From assembly GCF_013415325.1 (NCBI RefSeq), contig NZ_JACBYE010000037.1, positions 1 through 43,942 on the forward strand: a DNA stretch of 43,942 nt, written 5' to 3'. Source of the stretch: Sanguibacter inulinus. GTDB lineage: Bacteria > Actinomycetota > Actinomycetes > Actinomycetales > Cellulomonadaceae. The position numbers and the translations under genes were made by a program. This document shows positions 2,762 through 17,431 of this stretch, one piece after another; position 1 is the stretch's first letter; each line of letters opens with the position of its first letter. Below the pieces are notes generated by a model that saw only the letters and a list, made by a program, of their open reading frames with translations, was not told the origin of the DNA and ran no database searches.

Positions 2762-2953
2762 GGGATCTCTCAGCGGTATGCGGCGGGAGCGCGAGGGCTG
2801 CCTGTCCTCGTGACCGTCGCTGCAGGCCAGCCGTCTGACACCCTGTGCGTGGCGTGCCAGCGCAGCGGGGAGTCAGCGCAGCGTGCCCCCGCACGCCGCG
2901 CCCGTCTCACGCAAGGGACCAACGTCCAGCATCTGAGCACTTCCAGCAGACCG

Positions 2954-2982
2954 TTGACAGTGGCGTCTGCCGTGCATACCTT
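2954..2982 (+). promoter_or_regulatory. Consensus sigma70 promoter of the sulfur operon leader
   Basis: The -35 is a perfect TTGACA (2954-2959); after a 17-bp spacer comes -10 TACCTT (2977-2982), predicting transcription from about 2989. The untranslated start then holds two perfect hairpins, CCACGG/CCGTGG (2998-3003 with 3010-3015) and CCGCCG/CGGCGG (3019-3024 with 3028-3033), before the leader peptide at 3053. This is one of the best promoter matches in the window. Confidence 0.75.
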
Positions 2983-3052
2983 CCAGGACATCGAGGTCCA
3001 CGGGTTCGACCGTGGGCTCCGCCGCACCGGCGGACTGCTGAGGAGACACACC

Positions 3053-3148
3053 ATGACTGGACGCACACTGGGCACGGCGCAGCCGCAACCCGGGCTGTCC
3101 CTGTCCTGTTGTCCGGTCTCCGGTGCGCCGCTCACCTGTCGCCGCTGA
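3053..3148 (+). CDS. Cysteine-rich attenuation leader peptide (31 aa)
   Basis: A 31-codon ORF with an excellent start: AGGAG sits 8 nt before the ATG. Its C-terminal half carries a Cys-Cys pair (residues 19-20) and a third Cys (29), then Arg-Arg and stop. All three Cys codons are TGT, the rare synonym in this GC-rich genome, where TGC would be expected. Actinobacterial sulfur operons are known to use short Cys-containing leader peptides that sense charged tRNA-Cys by ribosome stalling. The following gene starts 358 bp later, and two hairpins (3163-3179, 3194-3220) follow the stop codon. The peptide itself probably has no function after synthesis. Regulation is inferred from layout; the ORF and hairpins are seen directly. 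Confidence 0.75.
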   Translation: MTGRTLGTAQPQPGLSLSCCPVSGAPLTCRR

Positions 3149-3162
3149 GCTGAGCGTCACCC

Positions 3163-3220
3163 CGCGGGCCTGACCCGCGCCGCCGTCACCCTCGGTCCCA
3201 CGCACGACCTGCGTGGCACC
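3163..3220 (+). promoter_or_regulatory. Candidate attenuator hairpins in the 358-bp leader
   Basis: Hairpin 1 is CGCGGG/CCCGCG around a 5-nt loop (3163-3168 with 3174-3179), 14 nt after the leader stop. Hairpin 2 pairs 3194-3204 with 3210-3220: ten base pairs, one C-C mismatch, 5-nt loop. There is no T-run, so termination may be of the U-less actinobacterial kind or Rho-aided. The rest of 3221-3506 contains no gene I can support; it ends in GAAGGA ahead of the first LLM start. Confidence 0.6.
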
Positions 3221-3506
3221 CGGAGCACCGCGAGCCTCGCTCGCCGCCCGGCCTGACGGCCCCCTCGACCTCTGGTCCACGACCAGTCGTCCTCCCGGCG
3301 CTGCGCCTGCCTGAGCAGCCGCACACCCGGAACCGCGTCCCGACCCCTCACGCCCGACCACGGCGCGCGGTCAGACGCACCCTCTCGCTGCACCGCACCC
3401 CGGTGCGCCCCGCCCACCTCGCCGTGCTGCCGACGTCTCGCGACGCCCGGCGCCGGTGCAGGTCTGGCAGCGGAGCGCCCACCACCGTCACGAAGGACTC
3501 TTCGAC

Positions 3507-4673
3507 ATGCCCTCCAGCACAGACCGCTCGACCGACCGGACCCTCCACCTCGCTGTCGACCTCACCGACGCCGGCGCCCACCCGGCAGCCTGGCGGACCC
3601 TCGGCTCGCAGGCCCGGCAGCTCTTCGACGCCGAGCGCCTGCAGGACCTCGTTTCGACCGCGCAGCGCGGGACCGTCGACCTCGTGCTCTTCGACGACGC
3701 CTTCTCGCTCCAGCCCGGTCACCGCGGCGGCGTCCAAGGACGTCTCGACGCCGCGCTCGTCGCCGCCCGCCTCGCCCCGCGCTCGGCCGGCATCGGCCTC
3801 GTGCCGACGGTGACGACCACGCACACCGAGCCGTTCCACGTGTCGAAGGCCCTCGCGACCATCGACCACGCGAGCCACGGCCGAGCCGGCTGGCAGGTCG
3901 CGGTGTCGACGGGCACGGACGACGCTGCGCACGTCGGGCGCCGCCCGGCCCCCGACCTCGACGCCGCCTGGGCAGAGGCCGGCGAGGCCATCGACGTGGT
4001 GTCCCGGCTCTGGGACAGCTGGGAGGACGACGCCGAGATCCGCGACACCGCGACGGGGCGCTTCGTCGACCGCGACAAGCTGCACTACGTGGACCACGAC
4101 GGCGTGCACTTCGCCGTGAAGGGCCCGTCCATCACGCCCCGACCGCCGCAGGGACATCCCGTCGTGGTGGTGCGCGGGGACAGCGACGCCGCCCTCGCGG
4201 TCGCCGCCGAGCACGCCGACGTCGTGCGGGTCCGGGCCACGACCCTCGAGCAGGCCCGCGGCCTCCGCGAGCAGGTCCGCGCCGCCGCCGCCGCCCACGG
4301 GCGCAACCCCGACGACGTGATCGTGCTCGTCGACCTCTACGCCGTCATCGGCCCGGACCGGGCGAGCGCCCAGGCGCGCCTCGACCTGCTCGAGGGCCTG
4401 GCCGGGGTGTCGTGGGACACCGACTCGTACACGCACGTCGGCACCGACCGTGACCTCGCCGCGACGGCCGAGGAGTGGCTGCTCGCCGGGGCGACCGACG
4501 GCTTCACGGTCCGGCCATCGTCGCTGCAGACCGACCTCGTGGCCCTGGTCGACGGGGTCGTCCCGCTGCTGCGCCGCGCAGGGATGTACAAGAGCGAGTA
4601 CTCGGGCAGCACGCTGCGCGACAGCCTCGGTCTGGCCCGCCCGGCCAACCGCTACGCCGCCGCGATCGCCTGA
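3507..4673 (+). CDS. LLM-class flavin-dependent monooxygenase (1 of 5)
   Basis: A 388-residue luciferase-like (TIM-barrel) FMN/FMNH2-dependent monooxygenase, closest in feel to the NtaA/SnaA/DmoA branch: the SRLWDSWEDDA... HVGRRPAPD segment and the VDHDGVHFAVKGPSI... PRPPQGHPV segment are typical of that branch, but the N-terminal third is shorter and more divergent than in the neighbour at 4688. Likely role: oxygenation and C-S cleavage of an organosulfur compound, using FMNH2 from a separate reductase. Start at ATG 3507 with GAAGGA upstream; an in-frame ATG at 3456 lacks a ribosome site. First structural gene after the Cys leader; the next gene starts 14 bp after its stop. Substrate unknown. 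Confidence 0.85.
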   Translation: MPSSTDRSTDRTLHLAVDLTDAGAHPAAWRTLGSQARQLFDAERLQDLVSTAQRGTVDLVLFDDAFSLQPGHRGGVQGRLDAALVAARLAPRSAGIGLVPTVTTTHTEPFHVSKALATIDHASHGRAGWQVAVSTGTDDAAHVGRRPAPDLDAAWAEAGEAIDVVSRLWDSWEDDAEIRDTATGRFVDRDKLHYVDHDGVHFAVKGPSITPRPPQGHPVVVVRGDSDAALAVAAEHADVVRVRATTLEQARGLREQVRAAAAAHGRNPDDVIVLVDLYAVIGPDRASAQARLDLLEGLAGVSWDTDSYTHVGTDRDLAATAEEWLLAGATDGFTVRPSSLQTDLVALVDGVVPLLRRAGMYKSEYSGSTLRDSLGLARPANRYAAAIA

Positions 4674-4687
4674 GAGGACGAGCACCC

Positions 4688-6097
4688 ATGACCACGACAC
4701 CCGCGCCCCGCCCGGACGGCCGTCCCCGCAAGCAGATCCACCTCGGCGCCCACTTCCCCGGCGTCAACAACACGACGGTGTGGAGCGACCCGCGCTCGCG
4801 CAGCCACATCGACTTCGAGTCTTTCGAGTACCTCGCCCGGCGCGCCGAGGCTGCACGCTTCGACTTCTTCTTCCTCGCCGAGGGCCTGCGGCTCCGTGAG
4901 CACAAGGGCCGCATCCACGACCTCGACGTCGTCGGTCGCCCGGACACGCTCCCCGTCCTCGCCTCGCTCGCGGCGGTCACCGACCGTCTCGGTCTTGCCG
5001 GGACGATCAACACGACCTTCAACGAGCCCTACGAGCTCGCCCGGCAGTTCGCCACCCTCGACCTGCTCTCGGGCGGCCGGGCCGCCTGGAACCTCGTGAC
5101 CAGCTCGGACGCCTTCACAGGGGCGAACTTCCGCCGCGGCGGGTTCCTCGACTACTCCGAGCGCTACGAGCGTGCCGCGGAGATCGTCGACGTCGCCCGC
5201 CAGCTGTGGGACTCCTGGTCCGACGACGCGATCGACGCCGACCCCGAGACCGGGGCCTTCCTGCGCGAGGGCGCGGTCCAGCGGGTCGACCACGACGGCA
5301 AGCACTTCGACGTGCACGGCACCTTCACCACGCCGCGCGGCCCGCAGGGGCACCCTGTGCTGTTCCAGGCCGGCGACTCGGGGGAGGGCCGCGAGTTCGC
5401 CGCCGCGACGGCCGACGTCGTCTTCTCCCTGCACGGCACCTTCGAGGACGGTCAGGTGTTCTACCGCGACGTCAAGGACCGCCTGGCGGCCTACGGACGC
5501 ACCGAGGACTCGCTCAAGATCCTCCCCGCGACGACCGTCGTCCTCGGCGACACCGCAGAAGACGCTGCCGAGGAGGCCGCGCTCATCCGCCGCCAGCAGG
5601 TGTCCGGGCAGACCGCGATCGCGTACCTCGAGCAGGTGTGGGGCCGCGACCTCACGGCCTACGACCCCGAGGGTCCCCTGCCCGACGTCGAGCCGGACGT
5701 CGACAACGCCTCGCTGACCCGCGGCAAGGTCCGGCACGTCAAGGACCCCGGGCCCGTCGTGGCCGCGTGGCGCGAGAAGGCCGCCGCGAAGGGCTGGTCG
5801 ATCCGTGACCTCGTGATCGAGGTGACCACCCGCAACCAGTTCGTCGGGACCGCCCAGCAGGTGGCGGACGACATCGACCGCTACGTGCAGGAAGACGCCT
5901 CGGACGGCTTCATCCTCGTCCCGCACCTCACGCCCGAGGGACTCGACCCGTTCTTCGACAGCGTGGTGCCGCTGCTCCAGGAGCGTGGGTCCTTCCGCAC
6001 CGAGTACGAGGGCACGACGCTGCGCGAGCACCTCGGCCTCGAGCTCCCCGGTGTCGGCGGCACACAGGCAGCAGACCTCGAAGGGGCACGCGCATGA
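4688..6097 (+). CDS. NtaA/DmoA/YxeK-type FMN-dependent monooxygenase (2 of 5)
   Basis: A 469-residue LLM monooxygenase of the nitrilotriacetate monooxygenase A / dimethyl sulfide monooxygenase / YxeK group, full length for the group (about 440-470). Diagnostic blocks are present: HLGAHFPGVNNTTVW near 25-40, DFFFLAEGL, LAGTINTTFNEPYELARQFATLD, SGGRAAWNLVTSSD, ARQLWDSW, and GRGPQGHPV-like FTTPRGPQGHPVLFQAGDS. In Bacillus, YxeK and CmoJ of this family cleave N-acetylated S-substituted cysteines oxidatively. Here the following genes (GNAT, ABC permease, ATPase, lipoprotein) repeat the yxeL-MNO gene content, so the same chemistry is a good inference. GAGAGGA precedes the ATG. The stop overlaps the next start by 4 bp (ATGA). 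Confidence 0.9.
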   Translation: MTTTPAPRPDGRPRKQIHLGAHFPGVNNTTVWSDPRSRSHIDFESFEYLARRAEAARFDFFFLAEGLRLREHKGRIHDLDVVGRPDTLPVLASLAAVTDRLGLAGTINTTFNEPYELARQFATLDLLSGGRAAWNLVTSSDAFTGANFRRGGFLDYSERYERAAEIVDVARQLWDSWSDDAIDADPETGAFLREGAVQRVDHDGKHFDVHGTFTTPRGPQGHPVLFQAGDSGEGREFAAATADVVFSLHGTFEDGQVFYRDVKDRLAAYGRTEDSLKILPATTVVLGDTAEDAAEEAALIRRQQVSGQTAIAYLEQVWGRDLTAYDPEGPLPDVEPDVDNASLTRGKVRHVKDPGPVVAAWREKAAAKGWSIRDLVIEVTTRNQFVGTAQQVADDIDRYVQEDASDGFILVPHLTPEGLDPFFDSVVPLLQERGSFRTEYEGTTLREHLGLELPGVGGTQAADLEGARA

Positions 6098-6984
6098 CCA
6101 CGACCGACGAGCGCACGACGACGGCTGCGACCACGGACGAGCAGAGCCCCGAGGCCGCCTGGGCGCAGTGGCACGCAGAGCGCGAGCAGGGCCTCACGGG
6201 CGAGCACGGCTGGTTGACGCTCGTCGCACTCAGGTTCCTCTCGGGCGCACCTCAGAGCATCCCCGGGCTGGCAGGAGAGTGGTGGGCCGATGCCGACGGA
6301 GCCCACGTCCGGGCGACCGCCGACGAGGGCCTGCTGGCCTGGGACACCCGGACCGGGCGCGAGGCCAGCCAGACGCCCCTCGACGGACAGCACACCGTCG
6401 TCGTCCCGGAGGCCGGCTCGACGCTCGCGGCCCTCGGCGCCGACGGGGTCGCGGCCGAGGTCGCGCTGCGCACAGGGCGCTACCTCGTCAGGGTCCGTGA
6501 CCCGAAGGCGCCGGCACGCACAGGGTTCACGGGTGTGCCGACCTACGCCTACGACCCGTCCTGGGTCCTCGACGCACCGGTCCGCTGGTTCGACGAGCCC
6601 CGCCCGACCCTCGTCCGGGCCGCCCAGCCGGGCCTGCGCCACCACGTCCACGTGGTCGGCGAGGTCGACGTGGTCCGTGACGGGCAGACGGCGACCCTCG
6701 CGGTGACCGGGCAGCAGGCCGGCACAGGGACGGTGCTCTTCTCCGACACGGCGCAGGACACCGCCGAGTGGCGCGTCGTCTCGCTCCCTCCCGTGGACGA
6801 GGCAGCCGACGACCACGCTGCTGGCGACCGAGCTGCTGGCGGTCTGCCCACGACGGTGCGGCTCGACCTCAACCGGGCGATCAACTTCCCTGCGGCCTTC
6901 TCCGACTACGGCACGTGCCCGCGCCCTGTCGACAGCAACCACCTCTCGTTCCCCGTGACCGCCGGAGAGAAGGCACCCCGATGA
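6094..6984 (+). CDS. DUF1684 domain protein in the sulfur operon
   Basis: A 296-residue cytoplasmic protein of the DUF1684 family. The N-terminal pattern WAQWHAEREQGLTGEHGWL near 20-40 and the C-terminal signature DLNRAINFPAAFSDYGTC followed by P-R-P-V-D-S-N-H-L and AGEK are the two hallmarks of the family; here FP replaces the usual PP in the NPP motif and the final PPxEN block is changed to PVDSN. DUF1684 proteins have no established function. The gene is locked between an LLM monooxygenase and a GNAT by ATGA overlaps on both sides, which implies coupled translation and a job in the same pathway. One possibility is handling of an unstable oxidised thioether product or hydrolysis of an acylated one; this is inference only. 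Confidence 0.85.
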   Translation: MTTTDERTTTAATTDEQSPEAAWAQWHAEREQGLTGEHGWLTLVALRFLSGAPQSIPGLAGEWWADADGAHVRATADEGLLAWDTRTGREASQTPLDGQHTVVVPEAGSTLAALGADGVAAEVALRTGRYLVRVRDPKAPARTGFTGVPTYAYDPSWVLDAPVRWFDEPRPTLVRAAQPGLRHHVHVVGEVDVVRDGQTATLAVTGQQAGTGTVLFSDTAQDTAEWRVVSLPPVDEAADDHAAGDRAAGGLPTTVRLDLNRAINFPAAFSDYGTCPRPVDSNHLSFPVTAGEKAPR

Positions 6985-7583
6985 GCACCGCGACCCGCCG
7001 CACCGCCGGCGTGAGCCCGGGCGACGAGCTCGACGTCCGCGAGGTCCACCTCGACGACCCGCTCGTGCGGCCCTTGCTCGAAGACCTCGCGCACGAGTAC
7101 GCCACCCGGTACAGCGACCAGCTGACCGAGGACGAGCTGCTCCGTGAGATGTCGGAGTACCCGGCCGAGGACTTCGCAGCCCCGCACGGGCGCCTGCTCC
7201 TCGTGCTCGCGGCAGGTGTCCCCGTCGCGGGTGGTGCCTACCGTCGCCGGACCGAGCCCGAGCTCGGCGACCTCGCGCGCAGCGCCCACCCCGAGGCGGC
7301 TCGCACCGAGGACGGCAGCCCGGCGGTCCCGACGGCCGAGCTCAAGCGGATCTGGACGCACAACGCGCACCGCCGTCGCGGCCTCGCCCGCCTCGTGCTC
7401 ACCGAGCTCGAGCGGCGCGCCGGCCAGAACGGCTACGAGCGCATCTACCTGACGACCGGACCCCGTCAACCCGAGGCCGCAGGCCTCTACCTCTCGGCCG
7501 GCTACGCGCCGCTCTACGACCCGGCGGTCCAGGCGGAGCGGCCCGGCCCGCTCGCCTTCGAGAAGTGGCTCTGTCCGAGGTGA
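6981..7583 (+). CDS. GNAT family N-acetyltransferase (YxeL-like position)
   Basis: A 200-residue GNAT. The acetyl-CoA-binding strand-loop-helix is seen as KRIWTHNAHRRRGLARLVLTELE (about 122-143, with RRRGLA as the pyrophosphate loop), followed by the typical YLTTGPRQPEAAGLYLSAGY (about 155-174). In the Bacillus S-substituted-cysteine pathways a GNAT (YxeL, SnaB) acetylates the imported amino acid before the flavin monooxygenase acts; position directly beside an YxeK-type enzyme and an amino-acid ABC importer supports that role here. The start overlaps the DUF1684 stop by 4 bp and is preceded by GGAGAGAAGG. The 72-bp gap to the permease has no feature beyond a ribosome site. Confidence 0.85.
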   Translation: MSTATRRTAGVSPGDELDVREVHLDDPLVRPLLEDLAHEYATRYSDQLTEDELLREMSEYPAEDFAAPHGRLLLVLAAGVPVAGGAYRRRTEPELGDLARSAHPEAARTEDGSPAVPTAELKRIWTHNAHRRRGLARLVLTELERRAGQNGYERIYLTTGPRQPEAAGLYLSAGYAPLYDPAVQAERPGPLAFEKWLCPR

Positions 7584-7655
7584 CCTCACGCGCACCGGCG
7601 GTCGACGCACCCGCCCCCGGGTCACCCGGGAACCCCGCACACCTGAAGGTCAGCC

Positions 7656-8897
7656 ATGAGCTCAGCACTCTCCACACCGCCCTCGACGGGTAGGTCGGCT
7701 AACTCCGCCGCGCCGCCCGGCCTCACCAAGAGCACAATCAGCACTGTCAGCAAGGACCCCGCGGCACCCACGTCGCCCTCGGCCCCTTCGGCCCCTTCGG
7801 CCCTGCCGCGGGCCACCCGCGCCGAGCTCGAGTCGCTGCGCGTCGTCGGTGCCCGGCACCCGTGGCGCTGGGTCGCGACGGCGGCCGTGGCCGTCCTCCT
7901 CGCGATGGTCGTCAGCTCCCTCGTGACGAACCAGCGCTGGGAGTGGTCGGTCGTCTTCCAGTACCTCACCTGGCCCTCGATCCTCTCCGGCCTGTGGGGC
8001 ACGCTGCGGCTCACCCTGGTGGCCGCGGTCATCGGCTTCGGTCTGGGCACCGTGCTCGCCCTCATGAGGCTCTCGCGCTCGCCGCTGCTGCGCGCGGTGT
8101 CGTGGGCCTACACCTGGGTGTTCCGTTCGGTGCCGCTGATCCTCCAGCTGCTGCTCTGGTACAACCTCGCGTACCTGTACCCGAGCCTCACGCTGGGCAT
8201 CCCCTTCGGGCCGTCCTTCGCGGAGTTCGGCACCCTCGACGTCATCAACAAGTTCGGTGCGGCGATCCTCGGACTCGGGCTCTCGCAGGCGGCGTACTCG
8301 GCGGAGATCGTCCGGGCCGGGATCCTCAGCGTCGACCAGGGCCAGCACGAGGCGGCGGCGGCGCTCGGCATCCCGCGGGCCCGGCAGTCGACCCGCATCG
8401 TGCTGCCGCAGGCCATGCGGACCATCGTGCCGACCTCGGTCAACGAGATCATCGGTCTGGTCAAGGGCACGTCGGTCGTCTACGTCCTGGCCTACGGCGA
8501 GCTCTTCTACACCGTCGGTGTCATCTACGGACGCAACCAGCGGGTCGTCCCGCTGCTCATGGTCGCGGCGATCTGGTACGTCATCATCACCACGGTCATC
8601 ACCGTCATCCAGTTCTACGTGGAACGTCACTACGCCAAGGGCGCCGTCAGGACGCTCCCGCCGACCCCGCTCCAGGTCGCCCGGTGGACCGTGCTGCGCA
8701 CGTGGTCCCGCCTCACAGGCCGCCCTGCGCACCCGTCCCTGCCGCCGGCCTTCGCCGTGCGGACCGGCAACGGACGGGGGCACCTCACCCGCACAGGCCG
8801 TCCGAGCGCTGCACAGCCGAGCACCTCGCAGCCGAGCACCGCACAGCCGAGCGCCGCACACCCGAGCACCGCACGCACCGAGGGAGGTGTCGCATGA
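7656..8897 (+). CDS. Polar amino-acid ABC transporter permease
   Basis: A 413-residue inner-membrane permease of the His/Glu/Gln/Arg (HEQR) family, with about five membrane spans between residues 70 and 320. The permease EAA loop is seen as [24 protein letters not shown] (about 230-254). The core is flanked by unusual hydrophilic tails: about 65 N-terminal residues rich in Ser/Pro/Ala, and about 90 C-terminal residues ending in a 5-residue repeat (AQPST-like, four units). Both are much longer than in the family (usual total 220-320). Likely a TcyL/YxeN counterpart importing cystine-like or S-substituted cysteines with the ATPase at 8894 and the lipoprotein at 9887. Its stop overlaps the ATPase start (ATGA). 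Confidence 0.9.
8811..8870 (+). repeat. Four 15-bp tandem repeats coding (A/S)QPST
   Basis: Four imperfect copies of GCACAGCCGAGCACC encode the C-terminal pentapeptide repeats of the permease. The array is in frame, so copy-number change would lengthen or shorten the tail without a frameshift. Confidence 0.8.
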
Positions 8898-9673
8898 GCA
8901 CCGCGACAGGCACCCGCGGCCTCCTCGAAGTCCACGGCGTCCACAAGAGCTACGGCACCCTCGAGGTCCTCCACGACGTCGACCTCACCGTCCAGCCGGG
9001 TGAGGTCACCGTGATCCTCGGCCCGTCGGGATCGGGCAAGTCGACGCTGCTCCGCGTGGTCAACCACCTGGAGAAGGTCGACAGGGGCTTCGTCGCCCTC
9101 GACGGCGACCTCATCGGGTACTCGCGCAGCGGCGACACGCTCCGCGAGCTCAAGGAGAAGGCCGTCCTCGCCCAGCGCACCCAGATCGGCTTCGTGTTCC
9201 AGAGCTTCAACCTCTTCCCGCACCTGACCGTCCTCGAGAACGTCGTCGAGGCGCCGGTGAGCGCGCAGGGCCGCAAGCGGTCCGAGGTCGAGGTCGAGGC
9301 GCGTGAGCTGCTGGCCCGCGTCGGGCTCGCCGACAAGGCCGACGCCCGGCCGCGCCAGCTCTCGGGCGGTCAGCAGCAGCGCGTGGCGATCGCCCGGGCC
9401 CTGGCCACCAAGCCGCGGCTGCTGCTCTTCGACGAGCCGACGTCGGCCCTCGACCCCGAGCTCGTCGGGGAGGTCCTCGACGTCATCAAGGCCCTGGCGC
9501 ACGACGGGACCACCCTCGTGGTCGTCACCCACGAGATCGGCTTCGCCCGGGAGGTCGCGGACACCGTCGTGTTCATGGACTCCGGGCGCATCGTCGAGCA
9601 GGGCCCCGCGGCCCAGGTGATCGACGACCCGCAGCACCCCCGCACGAAGGCGTTCCTCGACAAGGTCCTCTGA
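8894..9673 (+). CDS. Polar amino-acid ABC transporter ATPase
   Basis: A 259-residue ATPase of the HisP/GlnQ/TcyN class. Walker [10 protein letters not shown] at 43-51, Q-loop in [18 protein letters not shown], signature [15 protein letters not shown], Walker [15 protein letters not shown], and H-loop VVTHE are all intact. The insert between Walker A and the Q-loop ([20 protein letters not shown]) is characteristic of the cystine/glutamine importers. It energises the permease at 7656. ATG overlaps the permease stop; GGGAGGTG precedes it. Confidence 0.95.
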
Positions 9674-9695
9674 GCCCGACGGTCCTCGCGGTCGT

Positions 9696-9728
9696 CGGCC
9701 CCTCGGGACCGAGCGGCCCCTCGGGACC
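9696..9728. repeat. 18-bp-period direct repeat in the ATPase-lipoprotein gap
   Basis: CGGCCCCTCGGGACC occurs at 9696-9710 and again at 9714-9728. It lies in the 213-bp gap between the ATPase and the lipoprotein gene, which otherwise shows only the GGAAGG ribosome site. Function unknown; partial pairing with CGGTCC at 9680-9685 could form a weak hairpin. Confidence 0.6.
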
Positions 9729-9886
9729 ACCCGGTGCGCGGCTGCTCGGCCACCGGTCCGGCACGTCGCCGACCAGCACGACGCCCACCAGCACGCAGCA
9801 CGACAGTCTCCCGCGCAGCCGACCGGCCGGCGCGGCCCCGCTCGTACCCTCTCGCCCCCCGCGAGACCACCCGGAAGGTCCACCTC

Positions 9887-10909
9887 ATGTCCCGTCCCAC
9901 CACCCGCAACCTCGTCGGCAGCCGTCCCCGCAGCCCCCGCCGCCGTGCCGCTGCAGCGCTGCTCGTGCTTCCCCTCGTCGCGGCCCTGGCAGCGTGCTCC
10001 TCGAGCAACGCCGAAGAGCCCGGTGGGAACCAGCTCGAGGCCGACGCGAAGGCCGCCGGCCTCACCGTCAACCTCACGCCGGACCAGGACAGGATCACCA
10101 CGACCGAGTCGGCCGAGGCCGTCGCCCTCCTGCCCGAGGCCTACGCCGACGTCGACACCCTCACCATCGCGGTGAGTGCCTACGTCGCACCGTTGTCGTT
10201 CCTCGCCGACGACGAGAAGACCCCGATCGGCAACGAGACGGACATCGCGCACCTCATCGGCGACGCTCTCGGCAAGGAGGTCCAGCTCGAGGTCAAGGCC
10301 TGGGCCGACTGGCCCCTTGCGCTGCAGTCGGGCGACGTCGACGCGACGATCGCGAACGTGACCGTCACCGAGGAGCGCAAGGAGCTCTTCGACTTCTCGT
10401 CCTACAGGGTCGACCAGCTCGGCTGGCTCGTCCAGGCGGACAGCGAGATCGCCGAGATCGACGAGGCCGCAGACGTCGCCGGGCTCACGGTCGCCGTGGG
10501 CTCGGGCACCAACCAGGAGAAGATCTTGCTCGCCTGGGACGAGGCCAACCAGGCCGAGGGACTCGAGCCCGTGAACATCGAGTACTTCGAGAACGACGGC
10601 GACACGACCCTGGCGCTCCAGTCCGGACGGATCGACGCGACCTTCGGCCCGAACGCCACCTCGGCGTACAAGGCGGCCGTCGCCCCGCAGGACTTCAAGG
10701 TGGTCGGCATCGTCAACGGCGGCTGGCCCGACACCGCGCAGATCGCTGCGGCGACCCTCAAGGGCAACGACCTCGCCCCCGCGATCACCGCGGCGATCAA
10801 CCACGCGATCGAGGACGGGTCCTACGACAAGGTCCTCGAGCGCTGGGGCCTGACCGAAGAGGCCGTCACCGAGTCCGAGACGAACCCGGCAGGTCTGCCG
10901 AAGTCCTGA
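9887..10909 (+). CDS. Amino-acid ABC transporter substrate-binding lipoprotein
   Basis: A 340-residue family 3 solute-binding protein. The N-terminus has an Arg-rich n-region (PRSPRRR), a hydrophobic stretch and the lipobox LAAC, giving lipidation at Cys37. The mature part carries the SBP3 pattern (KTPIGNETDIAHLIGDALGK, QSGDVDATIANVTVTEERKELFDFS, GLTVAVGSGTNQEKILL). It anchors outside the membrane and delivers ligand to the 7656/8894 transporter, matching YxeM or TcyJ/K. The start ATG 9887 has GGAAGG upstream; the long upstream in-frame extension lacks a ribosome site. A strong hairpin (10990-11028) follows 80 bp after the stop. Confidence 0.92.
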   Translation: MSRPTTRNLVGSRPRSPRRRAAAALLVLPLVAALAACSSSNAEEPGGNQLEADAKAAGLTVNLTPDQDRITTTESAEAVALLPEAYADVDTLTIAVSAYVAPLSFLADDEKTPIGNETDIAHLIGDALGKEVQLEVKAWADWPLALQSGDVDATIANVTVTEERKELFDFSSYRVDQLGWLVQADSEIAEIDEAADVAGLTVAVGSGTNQEKILLAWDEANQAEGLEPVNIEYFENDGDTTLALQSGRIDATFGPNATSAYKAAVAPQDFKVVGIVNGGWPDTAQIAAATLKGNDLAPAITAAINHAIEDGSYDKVLERWGLTEEAVTESETNPAGLPKS

Positions 10910-10989
10910 CCCGCCAGCACGAGCCGAGCACCCTGGAGCCTGAACGACCGGGAGCGACCGTGGCTCGTCGGCAGGCCGCCCCGCCCGGA

Positions 10990-11028
10990 GCGGGCCGGGA
11001 CACCCGCCTCAGCGGCGTCCCGGTCCGC
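10990..11028 (+). terminator. Strong intercistronic hairpin after the ABC lipoprotein
   Basis: Positions 10990-11001 pair with 11017-11028 in a 12-bp stem with a single G-T wobble and a 15-nt loop. No T-run follows. It may terminate part of the transcription, or protect the upstream mRNA, thereby setting a lower level for the genes from 11125 on. Confidence 0.6.
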
Positions 11029-11083
11029 ACCTGACGACACAGCGCAGCACCTCACCCAGCACCGCACGCACCACGCACGCACT

Positions 11084-11103
11084 GCACCGCACCGCACCGC
11101 ACC
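11084..11103. repeat. (GCACC)4 microsatellite upstream of LLM 3
   Basis: Four perfect GCACC units (11084-11103) sit inside a wider A/C/G-only stretch (about 11030-11112) poor in T, just before the GGAGAG ribosome site of the gene at 11125. Slippage here could alter the leader length of the second half of the operon. No ATG lies in this spacer. Confidence 0.6.
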
Positions 11104-11124
11104 GCACGCACCAGGAGAGCCACC

Positions 11125-12474
11125 ATGAGCCGCGTCCCCCTCTCGATCCTCGACCTCGCCCCCGTCTCGTCCGGCTCGACCGGCGCGCAGACCCTCCGGG
11201 ACTCGGTCGCGCTCGCCGAGCGGGCCGACGCGCTCGGCTACACCCGCTACTGGTTCGCCGAGCACCACCTCTCCGCAGGCGTCGCGTCGTCGTCGCCCGC
11301 GGTCCTCGCCGCGCTGGTCGCAGGGCGCACCCAGCACCTGCGTGTGGGCACAGGCGCGGTGCTGCTCAGCACCACGAGCCCGCTCGTCGCCGCCGAGCAG
11401 CTCGCGACGGTCGCCGCGCTGCACCCGGGTCGGGTGGACCTCGGCGTGGGGCGTGCCTTCACGCCGCCGACCAAGCAGGCTGCCGCCTCGGACGCGGCCG
11501 AGGCATCCGAGAGCGCAGCCGCTCCGGCTCGTCCTGCCCGCAAGCCCGCCGCCCCGGCGCGTGACGTCGACGGGCTGCACGTCCCGTCCGCCCCGCCGAT
11601 CGACTTCACGGACTCCGCGCTGCGCGAGCGGCTGCTCGGCCAGCAGCGTGTGGTCTCGGCCAACCGTCAGCCCGCGCCCTTCCGCGACGAGCTCGAGGTC
11701 GTCCTCGGCCTGCAGGCCGGCACCTACACAGACGCCGACGGCGTGCCCCACGTGAGCGCGCCCGTCGAGGGCACCGACGCCGAGCTCTGGGTCCTCGCCT
11801 CGAGCGGCGGGGAGTCCGCCGAGGTGGCCGGCGCGCTCGGTCTGCCGCTCGTCGCGAACTACCACGTGAGCCCCGCGACGATCCTCGAGACCGTGGCCTC
11901 GTACAGGGCGGCCTTCGTCCCGGGGGTCCTCGACGAGCCCTACGTCGTGGTGTCGGCCGACGTCCTCGTCGCCGAGACCGAGGCGCAGGCCGAGCTCGCC
12001 GGAGCCCCCTTCGCCGAGTGGGTGCTGTCCATCCGCACCGGGCTCGCGGGGGCGATCGCCTACCCGCGGCCCGAAGACGCCCTCGCCCGTGAGTGGACCG
12101 ACGCCGAGCGTGCGCTCGTCCTCGACCGGACGGCGACCCGGTTCGTCGGGTCGCCGGAGCAGGTCGTCGCGCGGCTCGAGGCGCTCCAGCGCGTGACCGG
12201 GGCTGACGAGATCCTCACGACGACCATCGCCTTCGACCCTGCTGACAGGGTGCGCTCGGCCGAGCTGCTCGCGCAGGCGTGGGGGCTCGAGGCACCGGCG
12301 GCGGCAGCGGGTGCGGCGGCCTCTGAGCCGGCGGCTACGTCTACGCCTGCGACCGCCGGTGGCGCCGCGGCAGCGCACGACACCGACGAGCCCGCGCACG
12401 CCGAGGACGTCTCGGTGAGCGACGCCTTCGGGCAGGTCGCCACGCACCTGGTCGGGTCAGGAGCGCACTCGTGA
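11125..12474 (+). CDS. MsnO8/'group 1' LLM oxidoreductase with insert (3 of 5)
   Basis: A luciferase-like oxidoreductase of the group that includes B. subtilis YtmO (CmoO) and MsnO8. Family motifs: PLSILDLAPVSSG at 4-16, YTRYWFAEHHL near 45-55, SSPAVLAALVAGRTQHLRVGTGAVLL, and AEQLATVAALHPGRVDLGVGRA. At 449 residues it is over 100 longer than the family norm (about 330): an Ala/Pro-rich insert at about 120-150 (DAAEASESAAAPARPARKP) separates the barrel's early strands, and the C-terminus has about 55 added residues rich in Ala/Thr. In Bacillus the ytmO gene lies in the S-alkylcysteine operon, so a role in thioether oxidation fits. GGAGAG precedes the ATG; the stop overlaps the next start. Confidence 0.85.
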   Translation: MSRVPLSILDLAPVSSGSTGAQTLRDSVALAERADALGYTRYWFAEHHLSAGVASSSPAVLAALVAGRTQHLRVGTGAVLLSTTSPLVAAEQLATVAALHPGRVDLGVGRAFTPPTKQAAASDAAEASESAAAPARPARKPAAPARDVDGLHVPSAPPIDFTDSALRERLLGQQRVVSANRQPAPFRDELEVVLGLQAGTYTDADGVPHVSAPVEGTDAELWVLASSGGESAEVAGALGLPLVANYHVSPATILETVASYRAAFVPGVLDEPYVVVSADVLVAETEAQAELAGAPFAEWVLSIRTGLAGAIAYPRPEDALAREWTDAERALVLDRTATRFVGSPEQVVARLEALQRVTGADEILTTTIAFDPADRVRSAELLAQAWGLEAPAAAAGAAASEPAATSTPATAGGAAAAHDTDEPAHAEDVSVSDAFGQVATHLVGSGAHS

Positions 12475-13208
12475 CGGCGGTCGACGAGAAGGCCTCGCGC
12501 CCTGACGCCACCGCACCGCACTCCGTCGCCCCCGCGCCGCGCGACACCGCCACAGCACCGCGCGACGCCACCACCGCACCGCGTGACACCGAGTCCGTCA
12601 CCGTCCGGCTCGTCGAGCCCTCCGAGCACGACGCCGTCGCCGCGCTGCTCGTCGACGCCTACACGAGCGACTACGACATCTCGGGGGAGTACCGGGTGAG
12701 CCTGTCGGCCGTCGCCGAGCGGGCTGCCGAGCACGAGGTGTGGGTGGCGGTCGGCGCCGACGACCAGCTGCTCGGGACAGTCGCGACACCGCGCGCGGGG
12801 CGGCTCATCTCCGAGCTCGCCCGTGACGGCGAGCTCGACTTCAGGCTCTTGGGCGTCTCTCCGGCGGACCGCGGGCGTGGGGTCGGCGAGACGCTCACGC
12901 GGCACGTCCTCGACCTCGCGCGGGAGCGCGGCGCGAGCCGGGTGGTCATGAACTCCGGACCGCAGATGATCTCCGCCCACAGGCTCTACCACCGGCTCGG
13001 CTTCGCCAGGTTCCACGAGCGGGAGACGCGCGTCCTCGACGACGGCACCCGCCTCTTCGCCTTCGTGCTCGAGCTCTCCGCCCCGGCGGCGCCCAGCGTG
13101 CCGGGCGGAGCCGGCGGACCCGGCGCACCCGGCGCACCCGGTGCGACCCCGGTCCCCGCAGCACCAGCGCACCACCAGTCCACCGATCCCCGCACAGCAA
13201 AGGCCTGA
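12471..13208 (+). CDS. GNAT family N-acetyltransferase (second copy)
   Basis: A 245-residue protein with a GNAT domain at about 42-200. The coenzyme A loop is LLGVSPADRGRGVGETLTRHVL (around 124-145), followed by SRVVMNSGPQMISAHRLYHRLGF. The N-terminal 40 residues contain an APRDT-type repeat and the C-terminal 40 a Gly-Ala-Pro collagen-like repeat; both look like disordered tails. The GTG start at 12471 overlaps the preceding stop (GTGA), with a GGAG nearby, so it is translationally coupled to LLM 3. Probable role: acetylation of a second class of imported sulfur amino acid, by analogy with YtmI/SnaB beside YtmO. Confidence 0.85.
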   Translation: MTAVDEKASRPDATAPHSVAPAPRDTATAPRDATTAPRDTESVTVRLVEPSEHDAVAALLVDAYTSDYDISGEYRVSLSAVAERAAEHEVWVAVGADDQLLGTVATPRAGRLISELARDGELDFRLLGVSPADRGRGVGETLTRHVLDLARERGASRVVMNSGPQMISAHRLYHRLGFARFHERETRVLDDGTRLFAFVLELSAPAAPSVPGGAGGPGAPGAPGATPVPAAPAHHQSTDPRTAKA

Positions 13209-13212
13209 CACC

Positions 13213-14412
13213 ATGCCCGTCGAGTTCCTCGGCATCGCGACCACGTCCGACGCCTCCGAGACCACCGAGCGCACCACGGCGTCCTTCGACAAGGACTACC
13301 TGCTGCGCATCGTCCGCGCGCACGAACACAACGACTGGACGCGGGTGCTCTTCGCCTACGGCTCGAGCGGCCCGGAGCCCTCGGTCCTCGCGTCGTACGT
13401 CGCCGCGCACCTCGACACCGTCGAGCTGCTGCTGGCGCACCGCCCGAACGTCTCGTACCCGACCTTCGCCGCGAAGAGCTTCGCGACCCTCGACCAGCTG
13501 TCGCAGGGACGCCTGTCGGTCCACTTCATCACCGGCGGCAACGACCACGAGCAGCAGCGCGAGGGGGACACCCTCACCAAGGACGAGCGCTACGCCCGCA
13601 CCCAGGAGTACATCCAGGTCATCAAGAAGGCCTGGACGAGCGCCGAGCCCTTCGACCACGAGGGCACGTACTACCAGCTGGCCGACTTCGTCGCGGAGAT
13701 CAAGCCCTACGAGGGCCGGGTGCCGACCATCTCCTTCGGCGGGTCCTCCGCAGCCGCGTTCCAGGTGGGCGCAGCCGAGGCTGACATCTACGCGGTGTGG
13801 GGCGAGCCGCTCGCGAGCACCTCCGAGCAGATCGAGACCGTGCACGCCGCGGCCGCCGCGGCAGGTCGGGTCACGCCGCCCCGCATCCACGCCGCCTTCC
13901 GTCCGATCATCGCGCCGACCGAGGCGCTCGCGTGGGAGAAGGCCGACCAGGTCCTCGGACGCATCGAGGCCCGCAAGGCCGCTGCGGGCGGGTCGATCAG
14001 CCGGCGCCACCCGCTGACGAAGCCCGAGAACGCGGGGTCCCAGCGCCTGCTCGAGATCGCCGCCCGCGGTGACCGCCACGACTCCGTGCTGTGGACCGCC
14101 CCCGCGAAGGCGACAGGTGGTGCGGGCAACTCCAACGCCCTCGTCGGGACGCCCGAGCAGGTCGCCGAGGCGCTGCTCGCCTACTACGACCTCGGGGTCA
14201 GGATCCTCTCGGCGCGCGGCTACGACCTGCTGCACGACGCTGCGGACTTCGGTCGATACGTCATCCCCCTCGTGCGCGAGGGTGTCGCCCAGCGCGACGC
14301 CGAGCTGGCGCGCGAGTCATCGGACGAGGCCGACGCCGAGCGCCGGGCAGCTGCGCACGCCGCGCTCGCCCGCCAGGGCGCGATCGCTGCTGCTGCCGAG
14401 GCTGTCGCCTGA
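13213..14412 (+). CDS. SsuD-like LLM monooxygenase (4 of 5)
   Basis: A 399-residue FMNH2-dependent monooxygenase of the alkanesulfonate (SsuD) / dimethylsulfone (SfnG) branch. Seen: FLGIATTSDASET at the N-terminus, YPTFAAKSFATLDQLSQGRL, HFITGGNDHEQQREGD, the ERYARTQEYIQVIKKAW helix, FDHEGTYYQLADF, and PTISFGGSSAAA, each with a close SsuD counterpart. Expected chemistry: cleavage of a C-S bond in a sulfonate or sulfone to sulfite and an aldehyde. ATG 13213 lies 4 bp after the GNAT stop. Its stop codon shares a base with the next start (TGATG). C-terminal tail of 25 residues is Ala-rich. Confidence 0.87.
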   Translation: MPVEFLGIATTSDASETTERTTASFDKDYLLRIVRAHEHNDWTRVLFAYGSSGPEPSVLASYVAAHLDTVELLLAHRPNVSYPTFAAKSFATLDQLSQGRLSVHFITGGNDHEQQREGDTLTKDERYARTQEYIQVIKKAWTSAEPFDHEGTYYQLADFVAEIKPYEGRVPTISFGGSSAAAFQVGAAEADIYAVWGEPLASTSEQIETVHAAAAAAGRVTPPRIHAAFRPIIAPTEALAWEKADQVLGRIEARKAAAGGSISRRHPLTKPENAGSQRLLEIAARGDRHDSVLWTAPAKATGGAGNSNALVGTPEQVAEALLAYYDLGVRILSARGYDLLHDAADFGRYVIPLVREGVAQRDAELARESSDEADAERRAAAHAALARQGAIAAAAEAVA

Positions 14413-15509
14413 TGCGGTTCCAGGTCCTCGACATCGTCTTCAACCCTCCGCACCCCGTCACCGGTGAGACCGTGGCACCGGCCGACCGCCTCAACCGCGT
14501 GGTCGACACGGCTGTCCTCGCGGAAGAGCTCGGCCTCGACTCCTTCGCTGTCGGCGAGCGGCACGCAGGGGAGGTGCTCTCCTCCTCCCCGACGGTGATC
14601 CTCGGGGCGATCGCGGCGCGCACGTCACGGATCTTGCTGAGCACAGGGGTCACGGTGCTCTCGCTCCTCGACCCGGTCCGGGTCGCCGAGGACTACGCGA
14701 CGATCGACCAGCTGAGCCGCGGACGCTTCGAGATGGTCATCGGCAAGGGCAACGAGGCGGCGCAGTACCCCGTGCTCGGCCTCGACATCGCCAAGCAGTA
14801 CGAGTACCTGCAGGAGAACTACGAGCTGCTGCGCCAGCTGATCTCGGGCGAGGAGGTCACGTGGTCGGGGACGCACCACGTCCCCCTCGACAGGATCACC
14901 ACGCTGCCGCGGCCCTTCGCGGGGCCCTTCCGCATCTGGCACGGCTCGGCGACGTCGGCCTTCGCGGTGGACCTCGCCGCTCGGTGGGGCGACCCGATCG
15001 TGTCGGCGAACGCCTTCCAGCCGCGTGAGGCCTACAAGGTGCTCATCGACCGCTACCGCGAGCAGTACGCCGAGCACGGGCACGACCCGGCCAAGGCGTA
15101 CGTCGGCTCCGGGTCCGGCGGGCTGTTCCTCGCGGACACGACCGAGCAGGCCGTCGAGCAGTACAGGCCGATCTACGAGGGGGCCGTGGCGCGCGCCGAC
15201 GCGCGCGGCTACGACCCGAAGGCCGTCGGCAAGGTGACAGCCTTCCGGACCGTCGAGGAGGCCGTCGAGCGCGGCCCGGCGCTCGTCGGCTCGCCCGAGC
15301 GGGTCGTCGAGAAGATCCTCGACTACCACCAGAGCTACGGCCACGACCTCCAGTCGGTCTCGGTCAACCACCTCCTCGACGTGGAGCAGCAGCACGACGT
15401 GCTGCGCCGCTTCGCCGAGGAGGTCGTGCCGCAGGTCCGCGCCGAGGTGAAGACCGACCTGTGGACCGAGGCCGACACCGGGCGCGCCACGGGGTTCACT
15501 GCAGTCTGA
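14412..15509 (+). CDS. LLM-class flavin-dependent oxidoreductase (5 of 5)
   Basis: A 365-residue luciferase-like oxidoreductase closest in pattern to the bacterial-luciferase-like subgroup: FAVGERHAGEVLSSSPTVILGAIAARTSRI, LLSTGVTVLSLLDPVRVAEDYATIDQLSRGRFEMVIGKG, and the EYLQENYELLRQLI helix are clear. It contains RPFAGPFRIWHGSATS, the phosphate-binding region. Substrate unknown. It begins on the last base of the previous stop and is followed 44 bp later by the FAD-dependent oxidase, so it is co-transcribed. Having two or more LLM enzymes in tandem suggests successive oxidations or several substrates. Confidence 0.85.
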   Translation: MRFQVLDIVFNPPHPVTGETVAPADRLNRVVDTAVLAEELGLDSFAVGERHAGEVLSSSPTVILGAIAARTSRILLSTGVTVLSLLDPVRVAEDYATIDQLSRGRFEMVIGKGNEAAQYPVLGLDIAKQYEYLQENYELLRQLISGEEVTWSGTHHVPLDRITTLPRPFAGPFRIWHGSATSAFAVDLAARWGDPIVSANAFQPREAYKVLIDRYREQYAEHGHDPAKAYVGSGSGGLFLADTTEQAVEQYRPIYEGAVARADARGYDPKAVGKVTAFRTVEEAVERGPALVGSPERVVEKILDYHQSYGHDLQSVSVNHLLDVEQQHDVLRRFAEEVVPQVRAEVKTDLWTEADTGRATGFTAV

Positions 15510-15553
15510 GGACCTGGCACCAGGTCCGTCCCGCGCACCAGAGGAGCACGAGC

Positions 15554-16744
15554 ATGACCGAGCAGGTCGAGACCGTCGTCGTCGGCGGCGGGGTGATGGG
15601 GTCGGCCGCCGCCTGGGCCCTCGCCTCGGCCGGCCGTGAGGTGCTGCTCCTCGAGCGCTTCGAGCCCGGGCACGTGCGCGGCGCCTCGCACGGCGCGTCG
15701 CGCATCTACCGGACCACCTACGCGGAACCGGAGTACCTCGACCTGGCGCAGGAGGCGCTGGGCCACTGGCGCTCGCTCGAGGCCGACGCTGGTGTCGAGC
15801 TCCTGACGCTCACGGGTGGTGTCAGCGGGGGAGCAGGCGACGCGCGCCGCGAGGAGATCGCCGAGGCCTTCGTCGCGCGCGGCGTGCCGCACGAGTGGCT
15901 CTCGGCCGAGGCTGCGGGCGAACGGTGGCCCGGGCTGCGCTTCGACGGGCGGGTGCTCCACGAGATCGAGACCGCCGGGCGGGTGCACGCCGACCGGGCC
16001 GTCGAGGCCTTCCAGGCTGTCGCGCGTGCTCGGGGTGCCCAGGTCCGGCACTCGACCGCTGTGCTCGGCGTCGACGAGGTCCCCGGCGGTGTGCGGGTGC
16101 GGACCGAGCAGGGCGACGTCCTCGCGCAGCGGGTCGTCGTGGCGGTCGGTGCGTGGAGCGCTGGACTCGTCGCACCGCTGCTCGGTGGTACGTCTGGCCC
16201 TCTCGGGCCTGGCGGTCTCCCGTTCGTGGTCACCCAGGAGCAGCCCGCGCACTTCGCGCTGCGCGCCGGTGCACCCGACGAGCTGACGTGGCCGAGCTTC
16301 ACGAACGACCCCGGGCCGTCCCTCGTCGGTCCCGGCCGACGCTGGCCGAGCGGGACCTACGGGCTCGCGACCCCCGGCGAGGGCATCAAGGTCGGGTTCC
16401 ACGGGGTGGGGCCGCGCACCGACCCGGACCACCGGAGCTTCCAGCCCGAGCAGGGCCAGCTCGACCAGCTGCTCGACTACGTGGCGGAGTGGGTCCCGGG
16501 TGTCGACCCGTCGACAGCCGTGCCGATCTCGTGCACGTACACGACGACGCCGGACCACGACTTCGTGCTCGACAGAGTCGGCCGCGTGGTCGTCGCCGCA
16601 GGGTTCTCCGGTCACGGATTCAAGTTCGCGCCGTCCCTCGGCCGGGTCCTGCGCGACCTCGCGACCGAAGACGTCGACGGACCTGTCGGTGCTGTCGCCG
16701 AGCGTTTCAGGCTGGGCCGCTTCGCGGGGGCCGCGCGGGGCTGA
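15554..16744 (+). CDS. FAD-dependent sarcosine/N-methyltryptophan oxidase family
   Basis: A 396-residue DAO-fold flavoprotein of the monomeric sarcosine oxidase / N-methyl-L-tryptophan oxidase (SolA) family, normal length 370-400. The dinucleotide-binding GGGVMGSAAAWALA lies at about 11-24, followed by GASHGASRIYRTTYAEPEY, typical of the family. Cys327 in SCTYTTTPDHDF is at the position of the covalent flavin link in sarcosine oxidases, and GFSGHGFKFAPSLG closes the active site. Expected reaction: oxidative demethylation or oxidation of a secondary amine, giving H2O2. Last gene of the long operon; GAGGAG precedes the ATG. Its part in sulfur use is unclear; an N-alkyl amino acid product is one option. 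Confidence 0.85.
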   Translation: MTEQVETVVVGGGVMGSAAAWALASAGREVLLLERFEPGHVRGASHGASRIYRTTYAEPEYLDLAQEALGHWRSLEADAGVELLTLTGGVSGGAGDARREEIAEAFVARGVPHEWLSAEAAGERWPGLRFDGRVLHEIETAGRVHADRAVEAFQAVARARGAQVRHSTAVLGVDEVPGGVRVRTEQGDVLAQRVVVAVGAWSAGLVAPLLGGTSGPLGPGGLPFVVTQEQPAHFALRAGAPDELTWPSFTNDPGPSLVGPGRRWPSGTYGLATPGEGIKVGFHGVGPRTDPDHRSFQPEQGQLDQLLDYVAEWVPGVDPSTAVPISCTYTTTPDHDFVLDRVGRVVVAAGFSGHGFKFAPSLGRVLRDLATEDVDGPVGAVAERFRLGRFAGAARG

Positions 16745-17002: not shown

Positions 17003-17431
17003 TCAGTCCACCGCGTCGTCGTAGCGCTCGCGGGCATGCTCGATCTCGGGCAGGTGCTCGGTGGTCCACGCGAGCAGGGCGTCGATCGGCTCGCGGAAGG
17101 TCTTGCCGAGGGGCGTGATGCTGTACTGCACGGCGACCGGGCGGGTGCCGAGGACCTCGCGGGCGACGACGCCGTTGCGCTCGAGCCTGCGCAGGGTCGC
17201 GGTGAGCGACTTCTGCGTCACGGCGGGGATCGCCCGGCGGAGCTCGTTGAACCGCGACGGCCTGTCGCAGAGCTCGGCGAGCACCTGGAGGGACCAGGTG
17301 TCGAGGACCTGGGCGATGAGGTCTCGGTGCGCGGGGCCGACAGCGGGGTGGTCGTGGTCCGCGTGGGGCTGGGTGGGCGGAAGGCCAGGTCGCCCGGTGG
17401 GTCGTGGCGAGGCGGTGGGCGTGCTGGTCAT
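17003..17431 (-). CDS. HxlR family transcriptional regulator
   Basis: A 142-residue winged-helix regulator of the HxlR type (single domain, dimeric). After a 35-residue Pro/Thr-rich N-terminus the HxlR core reads AQVLDTWSLQVLAELCDRPSRFNELRRAIPAVTQKSLTATLRRLERNGVVAREV, then the wing PVAVQYSITPLGKTF. One Cys in the core (LCDRP) is where redox-sensing members have theirs, though oxidation sensing is not shown. ATG 17431 was chosen for the GGAGG 9 nt upstream. Divergent from the RidA gene across an 11-bp inverted repeat (17467-17508); very likely its regulator. Confidence 0.9.
   Translation of the reverse strand: MTSTPTASPRPTGRPGLPPTQPHADHDHPAVGPAHRDLIAQVLDTWSLQVLAELCDRPSRFNELRRAIPAVTQKSLTATLRRLERNGVVAREVLGTRPVAVQYSITPLGKTFREPIDALLAWTTEHLPEIEHARERYDDAVD

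Follow-up and report, generated by a model that had tools for sequence, protein, structure and literature searches.

The salvage of sulfur from S-alkylcysteines by Bacillus subtilis is a single pathway that joins the monooxygenases CmoJ and CmoO to an acetylation step and a deacetylation step (PMC10863075), and in the S-(2-succino)cysteine (yxe/scm) operon of the same species a luciferase-like monooxygenase (LLM) of NtaA type is encoded together with a GNAT acetyltransferase and an ATP-binding cassette (ABC) transporter (PMC9706529, PMC12757645). A related unit lies on the forward strand, at positions 2954-16744, of a 43,942-nucleotide contig of Sanguibacter inulinus (the window, with a G+C content of 69-75%, from a genome of 4.26 Mb), and consists of a cysteine leader peptide followed by twelve genes, five of which encode LLMs. 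This operon is a variant of the known C-S cleavage operons, with putative substrate and chemistry, and it probably, though by no means certainly, serves under sulfur starvation to scavenge sulfur from organic compounds of the thioether type, among which S-substituted cysteines are the most likely. All twelve genes, with the five LLMs and the gene order given in a preliminary description of this DNA, were present on the + strand on recheck:

2954-2982, +: promoter candidate TTGACA-17-TACCTT, read from the sequence
3053-3148, +: cysteine leader peptide MTGRTLGTAQPQPGLSLSCCPVSGAPLTCRR, with three Cys codons, all TGT, and a Shine-Dalgarno sequence ahead
3149-3506, +: leader RNA, C-rich and G-poor (C 0.48, G 0.29), rut-like, with no intrinsic terminator detected
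3507-4673, +: LLM1, lid-less divergent NtaA/DmoA-type paralogue (TIGR03860, 295 bits)
4688-6097, +: LLM2, NtaA/DmoA-type monooxygenase, CmoJ/ScmK-like candidate for C-S cleavage (TIGR03860, 431 bits, cut-off 280)
6094-6984, +: DUF1684 protein with invariant Cys275 (PF07920, 96 bits)
6981-7583, +: GNAT acetyltransferase 1 (GNAT1; PF00583)
7656-8897, +: polar amino-acid ABC permease (best NCBIfam match a cystine permease, 126 bits, below the cut-off of 300)
8894-9673, +: ABC ATPase, TcyN-like (PRK11264 TcyN, 319 bits, below the cut-off of 406)
9887-10909, +: family-3 solute-binding lipoprotein (SBP; PF00497, 82 bits)
11125-12474, +: LLM3, MsnO8 family, CmoO/YtmO-like (TIGR03558, 279 bits, above the cut-off of 167)
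12471-13208, +: GNAT acetyltransferase 2 (PF00583)
13213-14412, +: LLM4, SsuD/SfnG-like (PRK00719, 186 bits, below the cut-off of 510)
14412-15509, +: LLM5, CE1758-like monooxygenase (TIGR04036, 248 bits, below the cut-off of 479)
15554-16744, +: DAO, sarcosine-oxidase-like flavoprotein (nearest NCBIfam family, below its curated cut-off)

The search ranges for LLM2, GNAT1 and the ATPase opened one or two codons early (4682, 6978 and 8891). LLM4, LLM5 and DAO are named only by likeness because their scores fall under the curated cut-offs of the nearest NCBIfam families; LLM4 is below the equivalog cut-offs of both SsuD alkanesulfonate monooxygenase (185 bits against 518) and SfnG dimethylsulfone monooxygenase (136 bits against 383).

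The features shared with the CmoO/CmoJ (YtmO/YtnJ) system are an MsnO8-type LLM, an NtaA-type LLM and, putatively, an N-acetylation step, for which two GNAT domains are candidates (PMC10863075), LLM3 and LLM2 being assigned to the MsnO8 and NtaA families, respectively, at family level. The Sanguibacter operon differs in its paired NtaA-type paralogues (LLM1 and LLM2), in LLM4, LLM5 and DAO, in the DUF1684 protein and in the cysteine leader, and no M20 N-acetylcysteine deacetylase is encoded inside the unit, an absence already pointed out correctly in the preliminary description. CmoO (YtmO) is presumably itself a member of the MsnO8 family, and the CmoO/CmoJ system reportedly has a polar amino-acid ABC transporter too. 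The likeness to the S-substituted-cysteine operons of Bacillus is upheld, but the idea that two Bacillus pathway types are combined here has to be given up: an MsnO8-type and an NtaA-type enzyme already act in the one CmoO/CmoJ pathway, and because this pathway also holds the acetylation, LLM2, LLM3 and a GNAT enzyme require no merger (PMC10863075).

Similar genes in other actinobacteria have been reported as raised when sulfate is not the sulfur source. In Rhodococcus qingshengii IGTS8, the proteins TcyC, TcyA and SoxA, which have consecutive numbers (peg5783-5785), and an NtaA-type ScmK are raised on dibenzothiophene compared to sulfate, SoxA being placed by the authors of that report under glycine/serine/threonine metabolism (PMC8557817); TcyC-TcyA-SoxA is also the ATPase-SBP-DAO order of locus L090 (L numbers denote fetched loci), a match by name and order only. 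In Gordonia NB4-1Y, NtaA-type and LLM genes, matched by name only, are raised on organosulfur sources (PMC7661421). In view of these reports, the earlier statement that the gene combination looks undescribed is only partly right. As far as the literature searches reach, the pairing of LLM1 with LLM2, the link to DUF1684 and the tandem of a SAM-IV riboswitch with a cysteine leader in relatives are new, and neither an actinobacterial CmoJ/CmoO operon nor a SAM-IV monooxygenase operon was found among the titles listed from the open-licence literature searched.

Conservation, sulfur depletion and the LLM1-LLM2 pair

The actinobacterial sulfur-salvage cluster is real, and its LLM1-LLM2 core is widespread. 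The neighbourhood comparison proposed in the preliminary description confirmed the LLM-DUF1684-GNAT-ABC block: nine or more of the twelve families are present in seven of 34 neighbourhoods (L039, L040, L042, L043, L044, L045, L052), eight are present in L041 up to its contig end, and the LLM1-LLM2-DUF1684 core is kept in further loci of the family or order (L063, L064, L066, L067, L069), some of which have weak LLM5- or GNAT-like matches nearby. The order in L060 is permease-ATPase-SBP-DUF1684-LLM1-LLM2. A search of 119 relatives detected DUF1684 in 40, and DUF1684 neighbourhoods such as L051, L059, L061, L062, L065, L068 and L070-L072 contain no LLM of the operon set. When named genomes were scanned with the LLM1 alignment, at least 109 relatives were confirmed, and 80 of them were kept (the 80 named loci). 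Of these 80, 38 have LLM3, 31 have the ATPase, 29 have DUF1684, 29 have an Opp-type SBP, 23 have GNAT1 and 5 have DAO, with a compact order GNAT-LLM1-LLM3-LLM2 in five Mycobacterium loci (L131, L133, L146, L148, L153).

The proteins of the operon are nearly free of sulfur. After their starts they contain 15 Cys plus Met in 4207 residues (0.36%), with none in LLM2, LLM3 and LLM4, compared to 1.52% in the other 24 genes of the window (p 8e-5, computed on slightly early-starting ranges in which the operon has 0.43%). In L039-L056, Cys plus Met amount to 0.29% in 130 cluster segments and 1.82% in 80 other genes (p 9e-26), and in the named loci 49 of 83 LLM1 segments are without Cys and Met compared to 6 of 573 other genes; p-values here and below are nominal because related sequences are not independent. 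A low sulfur content of proteins made under sulfur limitation was noted earlier, with two flavin mononucleotide (FMN)-dependent monooxygenases of Gordonia among the examples (PMC7661421). With so little sulfur in the proteins of the operon, the few cysteines that remain are natural pointers to functional residues.

The preliminary description missed the conserved pairing of LLM1 with LLM2 and the degeneration of LLM1. The two genes are within 1.3 kb of each other on one strand in 77 of the 80 named loci, including seven Mycobacterium loci in which LLM3 sits between them. LLM2 (87 sequences) has 112 alignment columns with a conservation of at least 97%, and no more than 29 of these columns are also found in 90% or more of the LLM1 sequences (90 sequences). 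LLM1 is without the lid, without the QAG motif and, in the WN-VT motif, without the N and the VT, and segments 302-315 and 326-381 are missing from it, yet its predicted model (predicted local distance difference test score, pLDDT, 79) still matches NtaA-family structures. Loss of the lid and motifs in a protein that is so regularly paired suggests a heteromer, in which LLM1 would probably be the degenerate partner subunit of a catalytic LLM2, much as the beta chain of luciferase is a partner subunit. PDB entry 7e36, from streptoseomycin biosynthesis, is alike in combining an NtaA-family chain with a shorter, different LLM chain, but belongs to secondary metabolism; because NtaA-family enzymes came first in the fold search with LLM1 and the chains of 7e36 ranked low (7e36_B 12th, 7e36_A 26th), the case for a heteromer is made by the regular pairing and by the absence of lid and motifs from LLM1, not by a special fold match. 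Among PDB sequences, LLM2 matched 3sdo first (annotated as a nitrilotriacetate monooxygenase, 291 bits) and YtnJ/CmoJ second (278 bits, a family-level match), with 260 bits to DszA/BdsA and 205 bits to DmoA.

In the DUF1684 protein, Cys275 is conserved in 60/60 sequences, 32/60 of which have a second Cys eight residues earlier. Given the sulfur-poor operon, this suggests that Cys275 is an essential residue, and because this one invariant Cys is kept, the protein may catalyze a thiol-reducing step such as the reduction of a sulfenate. A haloarchaeal DUF1684 member with a Cx7C motif has been placed in a thiol relay group (PMC9426492); the predicted model of the Sanguibacter protein (pLDDT 88) gave six fold matches with E up to 0.001, all of them haloarchaeal proteins of which the function is not known, and the sequence match was 2lnu. 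A second DUF1684-GNAT1 pair is located elsewhere in the genome (G000:C95, L057), near genes of an RNB-domain nuclease and a Glu/Leu/Phe/Val dehydrogenase. The sole cysteine of DAO, Cys327, is kept in 13/13 sequences and aligns with the Cys of the sarcosine oxidase motif CxYTxTxDxxF, which is presumably the site of covalent attachment of flavin adenine dinucleotide in monomeric sarcosine oxidases. In L042, a nitroreductase-family gene (12573-13457, +) stands between DAO and LLM3, and a relative of it is found near DUF1684 in L047.

Cysteine leader and SAM-IV riboswitches

The cysteine leader recognised in the preliminary description is borne out by the sequence, since the short open reading frame (ORF) upstream of the operon has both the Cys codons and the ribosome site of a cysteine attenuator. 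The actinobacterial cysteine leader peptides described previously are alike in being encoded by short ORFs with Cys codons near the stop and no clear terminator, but they precede cys operons and cbs (PMC1262725), whereas those found here precede NtaA-type monooxygenases, some of them behind SAM-IV riboswitches. Leaders similar to that of the window are present in L039 and L040. The Cys codons of 19 leaders (window and relatives, with L063, L066 and L067 but not L087) are 52 TGT to 3 TGC, although TGT is the rarer codon (61 TGT to 396 TGC) in the called genes of the window and L039-L056, a background that does not contain the genes of L063, L066 and L067. A blind scan for CC-containing upstream ORFs (uORFs) with a Shine-Dalgarno sequence found them in 13 of 49 regions before LLM1 and in 9 of 352 controls (p 6e-8), L043 and L086, which are the same contig, both being within the 13/49; the leader of the window is not among these hits, since a called ORF overlaps it.

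From the stop of the leader to LLM1, the RNA has an excess of C over G (C minus G) of 0.13-0.26 in 13 of 14 cases (again with both L043 and L086) and of 0.04 in L096, compared to a mean of 0.002, a 95th percentile of 0.117 and a maximum of 0.152 in 198 controls, so that 13/14 exceed the 95th percentile and 11/14 the maximum; LLM1 regions without a CC uORF have a mean of 0.07 (n = 23). No intrinsic terminator was detected in 2780-3520. Because the RNA is C-rich and G-poor and no intrinsic terminator was found, the evidence leans towards Rho-dependent attenuation, a mechanism that was weakly predicted for the cys leaders of mycobacteria (PMC1262725). As for initiation, the TTGACA at 2954 is perfect and the TACCTT 17 bases downstream is weak, and this candidate promoter was not reported by a consensus promoter scan.

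In relatives, SAM-IV riboswitches upstream of the cluster were identified by Rfam matches (14 loci searched), to which a 13-sequence SAM-IV model added more. All sites were classed by one rule, namely whether the next gene downstream is LLM1 or LLM1-like. There are 13 such sites, and in 10 of the 13 a TGT leader follows, as an ORF within 62 bases of the riboswitch that is led by a Shine-Dalgarno sequence; L053, L054 and L056 are the weaker cases among these ten tandems because their leaders, spotted by eye, have a single Cys each. A TGT leader follows 2 of 13 other SAM-IV sites (L046, where the site stands before an Opp gene, and L142, both before cluster genes), and control regions contain a one-TGT leader in 3 of 176 and a two-TGT leader in 0 of 176. 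The three leaderless sites before LLM1 (L047, L123, L147) are at most 52 bases from it, and sites before a flavin reductase gene (window, L058) are likewise within 52 bases of their gene. The count leaves out the weak hits L093, L147:2654, L046:8211 and L047:12553, as well as L086 (the contig of L043); L085 and L040 are likewise one contig, and the LLM1-like gene of L050 was recognised in a single neighbourhood scan only. The succession of SAM-IV and cysteine leader suggests a two-input switch that would read the supply of both S-adenosylmethionine (SAM) and cysteine. No description of this tandem was found in the open-licence literature searched, which covers neither the paper that first described SAM-IV nor the polycysteine paper on mycobacteria, and the text of a review on tandem riboswitches is without the terms "leader peptide", "cysteine" and "uORF".

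The window itself has two SAM-IV riboswitches beyond the operon, and two flavin reductase genes:

31625-32191, -: NADPH-dependent FMN reductase, without Cys or Met after the start (PF03358, 129 bits)
36758-36870, +: SAM-IV riboswitch before an Opp/Nik-type ABC transporter (Rfam RF00634, 71 bits)
37018-40861, +: Opp/Nik-type ABC permease and ATPase genes, related to cluster genes of L040/L085
42471-42995, -: flavin reductase behind SAM-IV (PF01613, 108 bits)
43016-43127, -: SAM-IV riboswitch directly before the flavin reductase gene (Rfam RF00634, 79 bits), an arrangement shared with L058

A rhodanese gene accompanies the SAM-IV-led Opp/Nik-type genes (36758-41401, +), and a third SAM-IV riboswitch of the genome is located at G000:C31:29697-29810, + (L073, 112 bits).

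Putative route of sulfur salvage and its alternatives

The assignment to sulfur salvage, and with it the sulfur role given in the preliminary description, is supported by the sulfur depletion of the proteins, the TGT codons of the leaders, the SAM-IV riboswitches and cysteine leaders of relatives, and the conservation of the block. The substrate, each chemical step, the heteromer, the translation of the leader and the mechanism of termination are predicted as follows. The polar amino-acid ABC transporter would import an S-substituted cysteine, which would be N-acetylated by a GNAT enzyme or arrive already acetylated (a mercapturate). LLM3, which is CmoO-like, would form the sulfoxide, and the CmoJ/ScmK-like LLM1/LLM2, with LLM2 as the catalytic subunit and LLM1 as its lid-less partner, would cut the C-S bond with reduced FMN (FMNH2) and O2. 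The DUF1684 protein may help to reduce the sulfenic acid via its invariant Cys, an M20 enzyme encoded elsewhere would take off the acetyl group, and LLM4, LLM5 and DAO would probably widen the range of substrates. The reductases encoded at 31.6 kb and 42.5 kb are possible suppliers of the FMNH2. Control would be exerted by the TGT-codon leader and the C-rich RNA behind it, perhaps through Rho-dependent attenuation, with SAM-IV placed ahead in some relatives. A wider proposal, put forward tentatively and with considerable doubt, is that actinobacteria share a C-S cleavage machine made of nearly sulfur-free proteins, comprising the heteromer of catalytic LLM2 and lid-less LLM1 and a one-Cys DUF1684 protein that reduces sulfenic acid, which perhaps recovers cysteine from mercapturates to close the loop of mycothiol detoxification, and that a tandem of SAM-IV and TGT-Cys leader, reading sulfur metabolism at both of its ends, acts as the gate of this machine in cellulomonad-type relatives.

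Several observations weigh against salvage from S-substituted cysteines under such control. LLM1 and LLM2 are also similar to DszA/BdsA, to DmoA and to the enzymes of nitrilotriacetate (NTA) and ethylenediaminetetraacetate (EDTA) degradation, so that sulfides, sulfones or other substrates would fit as well, and both GNATs match at domain level only (PF00583). A search of 115 loci with nine queries, one of which (L076) was a neighbouring gene instead, placed M20 relatives close to LLM1-3 in no more than three loci, L126, L128 and L139. No SAM-IV riboswitch (RF00634, gathering score) is found upstream of LLM1 in the operon of the window, strong SAM-IV matches are present in only 6 of the 80 named loci, and CC leaders stand before LLM1 in only 4 of the 80, in which LLM1 is often not the first gene; before cluster genes other than LLM1, CC uORFs are not enriched (6/194, p 0.79). 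Pairing of the Cys codons with the Shine-Dalgarno sequence of LLM1 was not adopted as a sequestration mechanism, the results being inconsistent over the 14 loci tested (three more were without a start found): this pairing is the best or second in L042, L043, L044, L045 and L056, and ranks 24 in L039, 28 in L040, 44 in L066, 54 in L067 and 55 in L063.

As to the deacetylase, the genome contains nine M20 matches, and three deacetylases are redundant for this step in B. subtilis (PMC12757645). One M20-like gene is in the window (27688-29094, -), 15 kb from LLM1-3, and a 57% identical relative is near the LLM cluster of L126 (Pseudoclavibacter); L070 has an M20 relative and no LLM.

A broader scavenging of sulfonates, sulfones and sulfides by the chemistry of SsuD, SfnG, DmoA and DszA, with cysteine derivatives not as the main substrate, is possible but rather unlikely. 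LLM4 is SsuD/SfnG-like, LLM1 and LLM2 match BdsA/DszA and DmoA well, and Gordonia raises NtaA-type and LLM genes on sulfonates (PMC7661421), but the transporter is of the polar amino-acid type (TcyN-like) and not SsuABC or TauABC, two GNATs are encoded, and LLM3 is in the MsnO8 family. Strict dedication to S-(2-succino)cysteine, in which LLM2 would be ScmK and a GNAT would be ScmL, is improbable: a yxe/scm locus is defined by at least three of YxeK, YxeL, YxeMNO, YxeP and YxeQ (PMC9706529), which the K-like NtaA-type LLM, the L-like GNAT and the MNO-like polar amino-acid ABC transporter would fit at family level, but the operon has five LLMs and no ScmP (YxeP)- or ScmQ (YxeQ)-type gene, and LLM3, the LLM1 partner and other genes would be left unexplained. 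Catabolism of NTA, EDTA or other C-N compounds, in favor of which are the family name NtaA, the annotation of the best PDB match and the amine-oxidase type of DAO, was rejected as highly improbable, because the SAM-IV and cysteine leaders of relatives, the TGT bias and the sulfur depletion are unexpected for nitrogen catabolism; the conserved blocks, a consistent tie of which to NTA was considered decisive in the preliminary description, have these sulfur-related features instead.

Salvage from S-substituted cysteines would provide a testable function for DUF1684 and for a paired LLM family of many actinobacterial genera, and a possible explanation for the orphan "nitrilotriacetate monooxygenase" genes that are raised in actinobacteria that desulfurise or that degrade per- and polyfluoroalkyl substances.

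Downstream, a gene for an HxlR-type regulator (17003-17518, -) is tail-to-tail with the end of the operon. Farther away, a glycoside hydrolase family 30 gene (+) adjoins a family 42 beta-galactosidase gene (-) at 20931-24662, and this pair is accompanied by a major facilitator superfamily gene at 19551-20852.

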